From positions 1 through 44,132 of the forward strand of contig CABXNH010000007.1 of assembly GCA_902513495.1 (NCBI GenBank): a stretch of DNA of 44,132 bases. Reading direction: 5' to 3'. The notes under the pieces are model-generated. The model was not told the DNA's origin. It worked only from the letters and a program-made list of their open reading frames with translations, and ran no database searches. This DNA is from an uncultured Gammaproteobacteria bacterium. Lineage in GTDB: Bacteria > Pseudomonadota > Gammaproteobacteria > PS1 > Pseudothioglobaceae. Positions 17,073-21,549 of this stretch are shown piece after piece. Position numbers and translations under genes: made by a program. How positions within the stretch are numbered: the first letter of the stretch is position 1; the number at the start of each line of letters is the position of its first letter.

Positions 17073-18971
17073 ATGCTGACAAAAATACAAATTAAAGACA
17101 TCGCCAATGAAAATATATTGGTTAGTGACTTGTCAGATTCTGATTTGCTAGATTTTTGTATTCTAGCGAATGAGAGATATCGAAGTGGTAAACCCATAGT
17201 TACTGATGAAAATTATGATTTCATCTTTATTCCTGAGCTTAAAAAAAGACTACCTAAACATCCATTTCTTCAAAAGGTTGAAGCTGAAAACGAAGGGTTT
17301 TCAGATGAAAAAATAAAGCTTCCTGAGAAAATGCTCTCAACTGACAAAGCCTATACTTGGAATGAAATTGAGAAATGGTTGGAGAGAATTACAAAATTTT
17401 CAGATGAGATAAGCATTCCTCAGTCTGATATCCAGATTAAAGGAACTGCAAAATTGGATGGATTTGCAGGCTATGATGATGGAAACAAACTCTTCACTAG
17501 AGGTGATGGCAATAAGGGGAGTGATATCACTAGAGTATTTCAAAGAGGACTAAGCATTTTAAATGAGAGCGAGAGAGGTCAAGGTCCTGGAGAGATTGTT
17601 GTTAAGAGAAGTTATTTTGAAAGCCATTTGAGTAGTCATTTTGAGTATCCAAGAAATTTTCAGGCTAGCCTCATTAAAGAAAAAGAGTTAGATAATTTTG
17701 CTAGAGATGCAATTGATGCAAAAGCTGCCTTATTTGTTCCTTTCAAGCAACTACCCTTTTGGCAAGGTAGCATTAGTGAATTCAAAAATCAGTTCTTGGA
17801 TATAGTAATGGAGCTAGAGGGCGGTGTTGATTTTGATATTGATGGTGTGGTTTTCGAAATAGTTAATCCAGAATTAAAAGCCTATATGGGTTCTAATCGT
17901 AAGTTCCATCGCTGGCAGATTGCTTACAAAGAAAACAAGGAGAAGGCACAAGTTAAAGTTATTTCAGTTACGGCTCAAGTAGGGAGGACTGGAAAGATCA
18001 CACCTGTTGCAGAGCTAGAGCCGACTCAGTTGAGCGGTGCAACAATTTATCGAGCAACTGGTCACCACTACGGTTTAGTTAGAGAACAAGGTTTAGGTGC
18101 TGGGAGTGTCGTTGAGTTAACTCGAAGTGGTATGGTGATTCCTAAAATTAATAAAGTCCTTAAAACTGCTGAGGTTGATATACCTTTAAACTGTCCGAGC
18201 TGTAATTCTCTTTTGATTTGGGACTCAGACTTTCTGATGTGCCCTAATGTCAATGCTTGCCAAGACCAAATTGTTGGGAAAATGATTTATTTTTTCCGTA
18301 TCTTGGCAAATAATGATGGATTCGGACAAGCAACAATTCAAAAACTATATGAGGAAGGTATTCGTCAGGTCAGTGATATATATCTACTCAATGTGGACAA
18401 ACTAGTCTCTATGGGCTTTGGCGATAAAACTTCTCAAAATCTCATTAATCAGCTTGATAGGTCGCGCCAAGAAAGTATTGAAGATTGGCGCTTTTTAGCT
18501 GCTTTTGGCGTCCAAAGGCTTGGAATGGGTAACTGCGAAAATTTATTAAAAAATTATTCAATTGAAAAAGTTTTTAACCTTTCGGTTGATGAGATTGCTA
18601 ATATAGATGGCTTTGCTGAGTTAACTGCAGAGCTTATTTTTGATGGACTATTGTCCATCAAATCTCAATATGAAGTGTTGATATCTGGCGGATTTGATTT
18701 AGAGAAAACTTTATTAATAGATGATAATCACGCGAACTCAAATGCTTTTTATAAGAAAAAAATTGTTTTTACGGGCACAATGAGTCAATCTAGATCTGAT
18801 CTAGAAAAGCAAGCAAAGTCATTAGGAATAAATGTAGCAAAGACTGTAAGCTCAAAAACTGACTTTCTGATTATTGGAGAAAATGTTGGACAGTCAAAGA
18901 TGAATAAGGCCAAAAATCATAACGTTAAAATTCTTTCTGAGTCAGAATATTTAAAAAAATTAAATATCTAA
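17073..18971 (+). CDS. ligA: divergent NAD-dependent DNA ligase (LigA-like)
   Basis: Seals nicks using NAD+. The 632-residue protein keeps the domain order of LigA. There is an N-terminal helical domain (NERYRSGKPIVTDENYD), then the adenylation domain with AKLDG (Lys 127 as the nucleophile), LFTRGDGNKGSDIT, DIDGVVFE and RWQIAYK. Next come an OB fold (VGRTGKITPVAELEP), a zinc finger with Cys 374, 377, 390 and 396, HhH repeats and a C-terminal BRCT domain (KKIVFTGTMSQSRSDLE to the end). Compared with usual LigA several blocks are altered: the SPTxxVG segment of domain Ia and the canonical LKIDG and VRGEV contexts are replaced. It could be the only replicative ligase or a second, phage-like copy; the window cannot tell. 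It lies alone after bamC. Confidence 0.9.
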   Translation: MLTKIQIKDIANENILVSDLSDSDLLDFCILANERYRSGKPIVTDENYDFIFIPELKKRLPKHPFLQKVEAENEGFSDEKIKLPEKMLSTDKAYTWNEIEKWLERITKFSDEISIPQSDIQIKGTAKLDGFAGYDDGNKLFTRGDGNKGSDITRVFQRGLSILNESERGQGPGEIVVKRSYFESHLSSHFEYPRNFQASLIKEKELDNFARDAIDAKAALFVPFKQLPFWQGSISEFKNQFLDIVMELEGGVDFDIDGVVFEIVNPELKAYMGSNRKFHRWQIAYKENKEKAQVKVISVTAQVGRTGKITPVAELEPTQLSGATIYRATGHHYGLVREQGLGAGSVVELTRSGMVIPKINKVLKTAEVDIPLNCPSCNSLLIWDSDFLMCPNVNACQDQIVGKMIYFFRILANNDGFGQATIQKLYEEGIRQVSDIYLLNVDKLVSMGFGDKTSQNLINQLDRSRQESIEDWRFLAAFGVQRLGMGNCENLLKNYSIEKVFNLSVDEIANIDGFAELTAELIFDGLLSIKSQYEVLISGGFDLEKTLLIDDNHANSNAFYKKKIVFTGTMSQSRSDLEKQAKSLGINVAKTVSSKTDFLIIGENVGQSKMNKAKNHNVKILSESEYLKKLNI

Positions 18972-18983
18972 AAAAATATTCTA

Positions 18984-18989
18984 TATAAT
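18984..18989 (+). promoter_or_regulatory. -10 box for the glnK-amtB leader
   Basis: TATAAT sits 13 bp after the ligA stop and would start RNA near 18996, almost exactly at the foot of the first leader hairpin (18998). The -35 region is poor (TTAAAT at 18960-18965 with 18-bp spacing), so it may be weak or need an activator. No GG-N10-GC sigma-54 element is seen upstream. Confidence 0.6.
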
Positions 18990-18997
18990 ATAGCGTA

Positions 18998-19071
18998 CTT
19001 GAAACCAATGTTGGTATCAAGAAAAGACATTGACGTTTATTTGGGTAATAACCTAGATAAGCGTTTTTTTT
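18998..19071 (+). promoter_or_regulatory. ANTAR-type attenuator, module 1 (glnK leader)
   Basis: Hairpin P1 (18998-19021) pairs CTTGA with TCAAG and ACC with GGT around an A/A mismatch and presents the six-base loop AATGTT, with A at position 1 (19007) and G at position 4 (19010). After three bases, P2 (19025-19038) pairs AGAC with GTTT around the loop ATTGAC, again A1 (19029) and G4 (19032). The 3' arm of P2 falls in the 5' arm of a 13-bp intrinsic terminator (19034-19063, loop AATA, then eight T), so P2 and the terminator exclude each other. Paired hexaloops with A1/G4 overlapping a terminator are the known RNA target of ANTAR antiterminators. No binding has been tested. Confidence 0.75.
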
Positions 19072-19073
19072 CG

Positions 19074-19146
19074 TCAGTTTAATGATGAGCTGAACTGGTA
19101 TAGAAGCCCGCTACTTTCTTGAAGGTAGCGGGCTTCTTTGTTTTTT
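19074..19146 (+). promoter_or_regulatory. ANTAR-type attenuator, module 2 (glnK leader)
   Basis: A second set follows directly. P1' (19074-19093) pairs TCAGTTT with GAGCTGA (two G-T wobbles) around the loop AATGAT, A1 at 19081 and G4 at 19084. P2' pairs GGT (19097-19099) with GCC (19106-19108), with an outer C-G pair, around ATAGAA, A1 at 19100 and G4 at 19103. Its 3' arm lies in the 5' arm of a strong terminator: AGAAGCCCGCTAC (19102-19114) with GTAGCGGGCTTCT (19125-19137), then TTGTTTTTT. The loops echo module 1 (AATGxT for P1, ATxGAx for P2). The ribosome site for glnK begins only a few bases after the T run, so RNA must pass this terminator to express glnK. Confidence 0.7.
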
Positions 19147-19163
19147 GATATAGGAGTAATGAT

Positions 19164-19508
19164 ATGAAAATGGTTACAGCTTTTATCCAGCCAAAAAGAC
19201 TGGATAGCGTGAGACAAGTTCTTTCAGAAATTGATATTAATGGTGTTTCTGTTACTGAAGTAAAAGGGTTTGGAAGACAGAAAGGGCACACTGAGCTTTA
19301 TCGAGGTGCAGAGTTTGTTGTGGAATTCCTCCCTAAAGTTAAATTAGAAATTGCGATTACCGACGAGCAAGTTGATGAGGTTATTGAAGTCATTAGCTCT
19401 GCTTGCAAAATTAATGGTGGAAAGATCGGAGATGGCAAAATTTTTGTAACTAGCCTAGAGCAGGTTGTCCGAATTCGTACGGGTGAATCTGGGCCAGAGG
19501 CATTATAG
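19164..19508 (+). CDS. glnK: nitrogen regulatory protein PII (GlnK type)
   Basis: Trimeric sensor of 2-oxoglutarate and ATP/ADP that controls AmtB and other nitrogen targets. The 114-residue protein has the PII signatures: VTEVKGFGRQKGHTELYRGAEF (T-loop, residues about 30-51), FLPKVKLEIAI, and KIGDGKIFV followed by RIRTGE near the C-terminus. The odd point is residue 51, which is Phe (codon TTT), not the Tyr that GlnD uridylylates in proteobacterial PII; Tyr 46 is kept. It is preceded by two attenuators and an AGGAG ribosome site, and followed after 9 bp by amtB, which marks it as the GlnK paralogue by context. Confidence 0.97.
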   Translation: MKMVTAFIQPKRLDSVRQVLSEIDINGVSVTEVKGFGRQKGHTELYRGAEFVVEFLPKVKLEIAITDEQVDEVIEVISSACKINGGKIGDGKIFVTSLEQVVRIRTGESGPEAL

Positions 19509-19517
19509 GAGAAGGAA

Positions 19518-20732
19518 ATGGAAAATCAAATTTTAGAATTACAATATGCAATTGATACTTTTTACTTTTTAGTAATGGGTGCTCTTGTTATGTGGATGGC
19601 AGCTGGCTTTTCGATGCTAGAGGCCGGTCTAGTGAGAAGTAAAAATACAGCGGAAATATTAACTAAAAATATTGGTCTTTTTGCTATTGCTTGTACTATG
19701 TACATGATCTATGGTTATGACTTGATGTATGGAGGTGGAGCATTTTTATCGGGAATTAGTGGCCAGGGTGAAACATACTCAAATGCCTCTGACTTCTACT
19801 TTCAGGTAGTCTTTGTAGCCACAGCGATGTCAATCGTATCTGGTGCGGTTGCTGAGAGAATGAAGTTATTTACGTTTTTTGCCTTTGCTGTAATTTTTAC
19901 AACTATCATTTATCCTCTCGAAGGATCTTGGACTTGGGGCGGAAATGATGTTTTCGGTCTGTACAACTTAGGTGATTTTGGTTTCTATGACTTTGCAGGA
20001 TCAGGCATTGTTCATATGGCTGGAGCAGCTGCAGCAATTGCTGGAGTGTTGGTTCTTGGACCAAGAAAAGGAAAATATGACAAAGATGGAAATTCAAAAC
20101 CTATTTTGGGTGCAAATCTTCCTTTAGCTACTTTAGGAACATTTATTTTATGGTTAGGCTGGTTTGGTTTTAATGGTGGCTCAGTCTTAGCAATGGCAAG
20201 TAAAGAAAGCGCAGATGCGGTAGCAATGGTATTTGTTAATACTAATGCTGCTGCTGCAGGAGGCGTCATTGCTGCACTTGTTTTTGCAAAACTTTGGTTT
20301 GGTAAAGCAGACTTAACGATGACACTTAATGGTGCTTTAGCAGGTCTTGTTGCAATTACTGCTGGACCAGATACGCCAAGTGCACTTGTTGCAAGTTTAA
20401 TCGGAGCAGTAGGTGGTGTTATTGTAGTACTTTCAATAGTTTGGCTCGATCGTGAACTAAAAATAGATGACCCAGTAGGCGCCATTTCAGTGCATGGTAT
20501 TGTTGGACTTTGGGGGCTTTTAGCTGTTCCTCTAACAAATAGTGATGTTTCATTTTCAGGACAGTTAGTTGGAGCTGGAACAATATTTATTTGGGTGTTT
20601 GCAACATCCTATTTAGTGTGGCTAGGCCTTAAATCTTTGATTGGAATTCGTGTATCAAAGGAAGAAGAAGAAGATGGTGTTGATCTTTCCGAATGTGGAT
20701 TGGAAGCTTATCCAGAGTTTGTAACTAAATAG
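19518..20732 (+). CDS. amtB: ammonium transporter
   Basis: Trimeric inner-membrane ammonium channel. The 404-residue protein has about eleven membrane helices. It shows the Amt signature (GSGIVHMAGAAAAIAG with the first pore His), AERMKLFTFF, LWLGWFGFNGGS, the second pore His in ISVHGIVGLWG, and a cytoplasmic tail with the GVDLSECGLEAYP element. There is no cleaved signal peptide evident: the N-terminus runs into the first helix after about 15 residues. It is co-transcribed with glnK, whose product plugs the channel when nitrogen is ample. A hairpin terminator follows. Confidence 0.98.
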   Translation: MENQILELQYAIDTFYFLVMGALVMWMAAGFSMLEAGLVRSKNTAEILTKNIGLFAIACTMYMIYGYDLMYGGGAFLSGISGQGETYSNASDFYFQVVFVATAMSIVSGAVAERMKLFTFFAFAVIFTTIIYPLEGSWTWGGNDVFGLYNLGDFGFYDFAGSGIVHMAGAAAAIAGVLVLGPRKGKYDKDGNSKPILGANLPLATLGTFILWLGWFGFNGGSVLAMASKESADAVAMVFVNTNAAAAGGVIAALVFAKLWFGKADLTMTLNGALAGLVAITAGPDTPSALVASLIGAVGGVIVVLSIVWLDRELKIDDPVGAISVHGIVGLWGLLAVPLTNSDVSFSGQLVGAGTIFIWVFATSYLVWLGLKSLIGIRVSKEEEEDGVDLSECGLEAYPEFVTK

Positions 20733-20783: not shown

Positions 20784-20820
20784 CTTTCACTTCAGCACAA
20801 AGCTGAAGTGAAAGTTTATT
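20784..20820 (+). terminator. intrinsic terminator of glnK-amtB
   Basis: CTTTCACTTCAGC (20784-20796) and GCTGAAGTGAAAG (20802-20814) form a 13-bp perfect stem with a 5-base loop (ACAAA), followed by TTTATT. Confidence 0.85.
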
Positions 20821-20934: not shown

Positions 20935-21549
20935 ATGGTAATAATAATGAAGAAAATAAAAATGAATCAATCGCCCCTTAAAATTATTCTGGTTGACGAA
21001 AATATGGGTCGTTCTGCAATTTTAAGGCGAGCTCTTCAAGACAAGGGGCATGAAGTTATTTGCCGCTTAGATGAAAGTGAAAATCTTGCAAATAGTAATG
21101 AAATTACCCATGCAGACGTTGTTATTGTCAATGCAGATATTCCTGATGAGGCCGTCTTTGCAAATTTAAGAGATGTCAATAAAACGAAACCAAAGCCCAT
21201 TGTAATGTTTACGGAAGCTTCAGAGGAGCATATGGCTGGAACTGCAATTAAATCAGGAGTTAATGCATATATTGTTGATGGACTTGAAGAAAAAAGAGTT
21301 CAACCCATAATTGATGTAGCCATTGCTCGTTTTAGGGAGTTTCAGGCATTAAAAGATGAGTTAGATGCAACAAGAAGCCAGTTGGCTGAACGCAAGTCCA
21401 TAGAAAAGGCTAAGGGTTTATTGATGAAGCATAAAAAAATTACTGAGGATGAAGCATATCAGTCCCTGAGAAAAATGGCAATGGATAAAAATAAGCGAAT
21501 TTCAGAGGTTGCCGACGGTATTATCAGTGCTTTTGAGCTTTTAGGTTGA
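20935..21549 (+). CDS. ANTAR-domain RNA-binding antiterminator (NasT-like)
   Basis: A 204-residue protein with a receiver-like domain (about 15-130), a short helical linker and a C-terminal ANTAR domain (about 145-200). The ANTAR domain has RKSIEKAKGLLMKHKKITEDEAY and LRKMAMDKNKRISEVAD, the residues that contact target hairpins. In the receiver domain the strand that normally ends in the phosphorylated Asp reads VVIVNAD, placing Asn 66 at that site, and the conserved Lys is also absent (AYIVDGL). This resembles NasT, which is controlled by a sensor protein rather than by phosphorylation, but no nasS or kinase gene is adjacent. The start at 20935 is chosen for the AAGG element 7 bases upstream; ATG at 20947 is an alternative. 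Its likely target is the glnK leader. Confidence 0.9.
   Translation: MVIIMKKIKMNQSPLKIILVDENMGRSAILRRALQDKGHEVICRLDESENLANSNEITHADVVIVNADIPDEAVFANLRDVNKTKPKPIVMFTEASEEHMAGTAIKSGVNAYIVDGLEEKRVQPIIDVAIARFREFQALKDELDATRSQLAERKSIEKAKGLLMKHKKITEDEAYQSLRKMAMDKNKRISEVADGIISAFELLG

Follow-up and report, generated by a model that had tools for sequence, protein, structure and literature searches.

The closest described counterparts of the leader analyzed here are the eut leaders of Enterococcus faecalis with their ANTAR protein EutV (PMC3369931), which share with it a pair of hairpins of at least 3 bp, hexanucleotide loops with A at position 1 and G at position 4 (A1/G4 hexaloops), and an overlap between the second hairpin (P2) and an intrinsic terminator. 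The wider class of ANTAR two-hairpin RNAs defined in that study also resembles it in the presence of an ANTAR protein in the same genome and in the association with nitrogen genes, its predicted targets including genes for P-II proteins and ammonium transporters (Ramesh et al., 2012; PMC3369931). According to the accessible part of the same paper, at least 13 ANTAR attenuators occur in six transcription units of Desulfotomaculum acetoxidans. However, the eut attenuators precede different genes, whereas in the present leader a single gene is preceded by two complete modules arranged serially within ~150 nt. The NasT/NasS systems of Paracoccus, Azotobacter, and Bradyrhizobium (PMC5424462, PMC6759348) likewise feature a NasT-type protein with receiver and ANTAR domains and have targets that include nirB, narK, and PII genes; the present system differs from them in having Asn in place of Asp in the receiver, no clear NasS, and tandem rather than single modules. 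In the NasR/nasF system of Klebsiella oxytoca (PMC7496416), a two-hairpin RNA again blocks the leader terminator, but NasR senses nitrate via its own NIT domain, in place of which the protein described here has a receiver domain.

For the ANTAR control of glnK by GnfR in Geobacter, which the first-pass annotation had brought up, the accessible literature contained no paper naming both ANTAR and GnfR, and in the accessible portions of the ANTAR literature the word 'tandem' is used in other senses. Those portions of the paper texts (figures and supplements apart) yielded no description of a leader with two complete serial modules fixed across a family and several operons. As far as these texts reach, single ANTAR modules and multiple attenuators per transcription unit are known, and the clade-wide serial arrangement of ANTAR attenuation is new.

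Two attenuator modules in series in the glnK-amt leader

The window, i.e., the whole stretch of DNA that was analyzed, is a 44,132-base contig from a draft genome of 1.2 Mb (70% complete), and its closest named relatives are contigs of the SUP05 cluster, Candidatus Thioglobus, and Pseudothioglobus. Members of the SUP05/Thioglobus group abound in oxygen-minimum waters and also occur abundantly as symbionts of vent animals; to our knowledge, little has been established about their control of nitrogen uptake. The features of the locus are as follows:

18984-18989, + strand: -10 box TATAAT of the leader promoter (direct reading)
18998-19021, + strand: P1 hairpin of module 1, loop AATGTT at 19007-19012 (direct reading, stepwise folding)
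19025-19038, + strand: P2 hairpin of module 1, loop ATTGAC at 19029-19034, 3' arm common to T1
19032-19071, + strand: T1, first intrinsic terminator, stem 19032-19065, U8 at 19064-19071 (terminator scan, stepwise folding)
19074-19093, + strand: P1' hairpin of module 2, loop AATGAT at 19081-19086 (direct reading)
19097-19108, + strand: P2' hairpin of module 2, 3 bp, loop ATAGAA at 19100-19105, 3' arm common to T2
19102-19146, + strand: T2, second intrinsic terminator, stem 19102-19137, interrupted U-tract at 19138-19146 (terminator scan, folding)
19152-19156, + strand: ribosome-binding-like AGGAG (direct reading)
19164-19508, + strand: glnK, PII signaling protein, predicted target gene (PF00543, 97.2 bits; PRK10665 below its equivalog cut-off)
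19518-20732, + strand: amt, marine-subtype ammonium transporter, predicted target gene (TIGR03644, 617 bits against a cut-off of 514)
20935-21549, + strand: ANTAR response-regulator-like (NasT-like) gene, presumed antiterminator (PF03861, 69.9 bits)

The leader (18984-19163), which runs up to the glnK ATG at 19164, comprises two complete attenuator modules of the ANTAR type, one after the other: P1-P2-T1 and then P1'-P2'-T2. This confirms the arrangement proposed in a first-pass annotation of the DNA, down to the -10 box, the two successive terminators, both recovered by a terminator scan, and the sequences and places of the four loops. All four hexaloops of the window carry A1 and G4, and in each module the 3' arm of the second hairpin lies within the 5' arm of the terminator, as that annotation had also claimed, with P2 contributing GTTT to T1 (19035-19038) and P2' contributing GCC to T2 (19106-19108). 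Both modules display the traits of published ANTAR-target RNAs, namely two hairpins with stems of 3 bp or more and a linker within the 2-25 nt range (3 nt for P1-P2 and again for P1'-P2'), a second hairpin that cannot coexist with an intrinsic terminator, and compensatory changes in the stems; the genome also encodes an ANTAR protein, of which there is one. When the chain was folded stepwise by length in the absence of protein, P1 formed first, followed by a weak P2, which T1 then displaced; P1' and P2' formed next, and T2 displaced P2'. In the window, each of the two hairpins of module 2 is closed by a U-G pair; SELEX with NasR favors C-G closing pairs (PMC7496416).

Transcription would start at ~18996. 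The TATAAT is present in 39 of 43 leaders of relatives, at 21-25 nt 5' of the P1 loop, and a consensus scan of the glnK-amt leader promoter found no good -35 box. The ANTAR gene lies 1.8 kb downstream of the leader, where the first-pass annotation had placed it, and the gene order glnK-amt-ANTAR, as recovered by tblastn in loci retrieved via these two proteins, ANTAR and GlnK, is kept across the SUP05/Thioglobus family up to the Bathymodiolus and vesicomyid symbionts. Between amt and the ANTAR gene there is a strong hairpin at 20784-20814 (13 pairs with a weak T-run), possibly an operon terminator. The genome to which the window belongs has a second PII gene (G000:C17:22661-22996; 62% identical).

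Specificity of the motif

To count modules, we used a rule requiring two hairpins with A1/G4 hexaloops and stems of 3 bp or more, including at least one G-C pair, no more than 25 nt apart, with the second hairpin overlapping the 5' arm of a terminator. Applied to both strands of the window, it recovered exactly two modules, both in the glnK-amt leader, and 1000 dinucleotide-preserving shuffles of the window gave seven modules in total (0.007 per window) and no tandem pair; since the rule, though following the published ANTAR-RNA definition, was drawn up with the motif already in view, these figures are a guide and not a formal p-value. The comparative evidence given below is stronger than this estimate. 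A covariance model built only from glnK leaders (R1) scored the two modules at 27.1 and 25.5 bits, both belonging to its training set, with the next match in the window at 14.2 bits, and in the own genome its matches beyond the two modules were at noise level (14.8 bits and below). Rfam models at gathering score detected only tRNAs in the window and, at E-values up to 10, only sub-threshold leader and sRNA families.

Conservation and covariation of the stems

Covariation of the stems in relatives had been set beforehand as one of three tests on which the proposal could fail; run on glnK leaders from the SUP05/Thioglobus family, 43 of them distinct, it came out favorably. Module 1 is carried by all 43 leaders and a recognizable module 2 by 40. 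The inner pairs of P1 together with P2 are 100% paired in the 43 leaders, with double changes in four of five pairs (none of 500 shuffles as high), all three inner pairs of P2 showing double changes, while the longer stem of P1, which can extend to 10 bp, shows many pair types per position and folds better than shuffles (mean z of -2.8 over the 43 relatives). The terminator stems behave similarly, with 99.7% of cells paired and double changes at 5/9 positions for T1 (none of 300 shuffles as high) and 98.5% paired with double changes at 7/10 positions for T2. The weakness of P2', flagged at the outset, is real inasmuch as it has just 3 pairs in the window; nevertheless, it is paired in all 40 leaders with module 2, including two in which GGU/GCC is replaced by AGC/GCU. 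The two modules further share one 36-column alignment, in which 87 cells are double-changed as against 33 in shuffles, giving a covariation score of 0.807; shuffles score 0.374, and slid pairings reach no more than 0.412.

The loops are less uniform than the stems. Position 1 of the P1 loop is A in 34/43 leaders and G in 9/43; that of P2 is G in 3/43, leaving an A1/G4 hexaloop in 40/43, and P2' has such a loop as well, with the constancy of G4 in these hairpin tables being partly built in because the search rule demanded it, so that it is no independent evidence. P1' has a hexaloop in the lineage of the window and some others, whereas in many lineages of vent symbionts an additional C-G pair reduces the loop to the pentaloop AxGxx; hence, module 2 of those relatives may be bound in a nonstandard manner. 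Additionally, one species (L065) has T2 with a disrupted P2'.

The ANTAR protein and its putative input

The protein encoded at 20935-21549 combines a receiver (PF00072) with an ANTAR domain (PF03861), which is the domain set of NasT, and it is 41-54% identical to 25 gammaproteobacterial relatives fetched from outside the clade, a sequence likeness suggesting that it is of the NasT type. It is the only ANTAR match in its own assembly, and 47 of 49 near-complete genomes of the family have such a match, nearly always exactly one, the few second matches being fragments at contig ends. ANTAR proteins on phage records are distant (~32% identical).

Alignment of the receiver to EutV (PDB 6wsh) places the phospho-Asp of the latter on Asn66, and this position is Asn in all 49 clade ANTAR sequences versus Asp in all 25 relatives outside the clade. 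The clade protein accordingly lacks the conserved phospho-acceptor Asp of EutV-type, phosphorylation-controlled response regulators. Receivers without the phospho-Asp are enriched among ANTAR proteins (PMC4395418), and the Asn66 state is therefore derived but not unheard-of. A search of 83 genomes with PF13379, a profile that is not NasS-specific, gave weak matches (25 bits or below) in 11 genomes, none of them the own genome, and no convincing NasS partner. The signal probably reports the nitrogen state and would reach the ANTAR protein via a partner rather than by phosphorylation of the usual aspartate.

Two neighboring genes were considered in this context. Directly upstream of glnK in several genera (L132, L136, L083) lies a gene for a 311-aa sensor-like protein that weakly matches the signaling-protein domain YkuI_C; this gene sometimes has a single ANTAR module of its own and has no match in the genus of the window. 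In some symbionts only (L052, L073), a CBS-domain-like ORF, whose product might be a nucleotide-sensing partner, lies directly upstream of the ANTAR gene. Given these restricted distributions, we rejected both as the general partner of the ANTAR protein.

Other operons with the module and copying of the leader

Beyond glnK, R1 detects modules in the genus and family at independent genes, viz., serC, serB, and those coding for a NarK-family transporter, a class I fructose-bisphosphate aldolase (fba), and a NirB-like protein, the last being followed in L153 by a gene for a molybdopterin oxidoreductase resembling nitrate reductases. The set is consistent with the nitrogen-metabolism targets already known for ANTAR proteins. 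By the scan, tandems whose modules overlap terminators are present in at least 14 of 17 nirB leaders, 3/3 narK leaders, and 2/2 serB leaders, with L162 providing a further nirB tandem in which P2' has two pairs; the serC and fba leaders have a single module. The recurrence of the tandem at nirB, narK, and serB indicates that the family has used this architecture repeatedly. The first-pass view of a tandem as unusual holds outside the family, where all 13 modules found are single, but not within it, where the tandem is the rule. Seven further R1 matches (L114, L116, L117, L119, L120, L144, and L158) looked chance-like on inspection and were discarded. In the window's own assembly, serC runs into a contig end that cuts off its leader.

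The serB leaders of two genomes (L109 in G018 and L112 in G012) are derived from the glnK leader, that of G018 aligning to it over its full length with a score of 176 as against at most 35 for shuffles. Both retain the start codon and 11 glnK-like codons (MNMVTVVTQTK and MNIVTIVTQAK compared to MKMVTAFIQPK of GlnK) in a short ORF that ends in a TGA overlapping the serB ATG; the retention of these codons points to the recruitment of serB by copying of the glnK leader along with the start of the gene. The case is one of regulon growth by leader duplication, a gene entering an RNA regulon by taking on a copied leader. The fba leaders (L113, L115) and the leader of a gene for a 94-aa small protein (L110) are copies of glnK module 1 from which module 2 has been lost. 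No similar leader was found on plasmids.

Outside the family, 11 nasT-like loci from other gammaproteobacterial families have a module by our rule, each of them single, and the nirB-like leader of G163, from another family, and a phylum-wide match (L187) are also single, accounting for the 13 mentioned above. Class- and phylum-wide samples added few further R1 sites; however, R1 is tuned to the SUP05/Thioglobus clade and the filters of these wide scans were strict, such that tandems elsewhere could have been missed.

A two-gate attenuation model and its alternatives

We consider it quite likely that the leader acts as a two-stage, protein-dependent transcription attenuator of glnK-amt, with binding, termination, and regulation all predicted from the conserved sequence. 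In the absence of active ANTAR protein, the nascent RNA would briefly adopt P1/P2 before T1 ends most transcripts near 19071, and those escaping T1 would meet T2 near 19146. By analogy to EutV and NasR, an active ANTAR dimer would hold both hairpins of a module and block its terminator; hence, one dimer on P1 and P2 and a second on P1' and P2' could block the 5' arms of T1 and T2, letting RNA polymerase read into glnK-amt. As both gates must open, the leak of the off state would be the product of two leaks and the response would be steeper than with one gate, the steepness and direction of control being predictions of the model. The conservation of the pair in nearly all examined relatives and its copies at other nitrogen and serine genes make it look like a real two-step gate rather than a chance arrangement, and the erosion of modules in symbionts with lost or decayed amt likewise speaks for the model. 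Counting against it are the P1' pentaloops of many relatives, the G at loop position 1 of nine P1 and three P2 hairpins, the U-G closing pairs of module 2, and a receiver that lacks its phospho-Asp and for which the searches gave no partner.

The main competitor, which we regard as unlikely though not negligible, is that only one module answers to the ANTAR protein, while the other acts as a plain attenuator or lowers the leak by a fixed amount, its hairpins being relics or serving another factor. In that event, module 2 would likelier be the odd one, its P1' pentaloops and U-G closing pairs making it the less standard of the two and keeping a different mode of reading alive as an option. The loss of the P1' hexaloop in many symbiont lineages, the mere three pairs of P2' in the window, the retention of T2 with a disrupted P2' in L065, and the use of a single module at serC and fba all favor such a division of labor; on the other hand, P2' remains paired, with compensatory change, wherever module 2 is found (40/40), nirB, narK, and serB, like glnK, retain a module 2 whose P2' has a hexaloop, and each module exceeds 25 bits with a common model, albeit one trained on both.

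The remaining two explanations dispense with the ANTAR protein altogether. We deem it highly improbable that the hairpins are ordinary terminators, with T1 ending the upstream gene and T2 a spare, and with no regulation involved: T1 and T2 are good intrinsic terminators and the upstream ORF does end at 18971, 13 nt before the -10 box, but the conserved TATAAT between that gene and T1 implies a transcription start immediately 5' of the terminators, P1, P2, and P2' are conserved and covarying despite their shortness, and the same modules occur 5' of unrelated genes. Less probable still is a ribosome-mediated or other non-ANTAR attenuation, such as a trp-type leader peptide, toward which a sub-threshold match to the Rfam Trp_leader family points (26.2 bits against a gathering score of 41). 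The leader-peptide version we reject since 37 of the 43 leaders have no ORF of at least 8 codons with a ribosome-binding-like site; moreover, it is the hairpin loops and not codons that are conserved, and the nearby ANTAR gene is retained across the family.

Building on the two-stage attenuator, we tentatively propose a broader scenario, for which the case is somewhat short of even: the SUP05/Thioglobus family may have a family-wide nitrogen-assimilation regulon operating via doubled ANTAR attenuators, in which the tandem leader serves as a movable cassette that spread by copying from glnK to serB and, in part, to further genes. A single ANTAR protein acting independently of phosphorylation would read it, and the two gates would give a threshold-like response. 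If true, the nitrogen genes of these bacteria would be controlled after transcription start by paired RNA switches, and the system would have outlasted strong genome reduction in symbionts. Adding a second serial attenuator might offer a tighter off state and a steeper response, and the coexistence of single- and double-module leaders in one genome under one protein provides a natural test of its benefit.

Decay in symbionts with lost or decayed amt

In four symbionts (L180 from G050, L063, L076, and L077), amt has been lost or is decayed, with glnK and the ANTAR gene being kept. Three of these have also lost one module, with module 2 missing in the Vesicomyosocius leaders L076 and L077 and module 1 in L180; these symbionts thereby preserve a natural record of decay.
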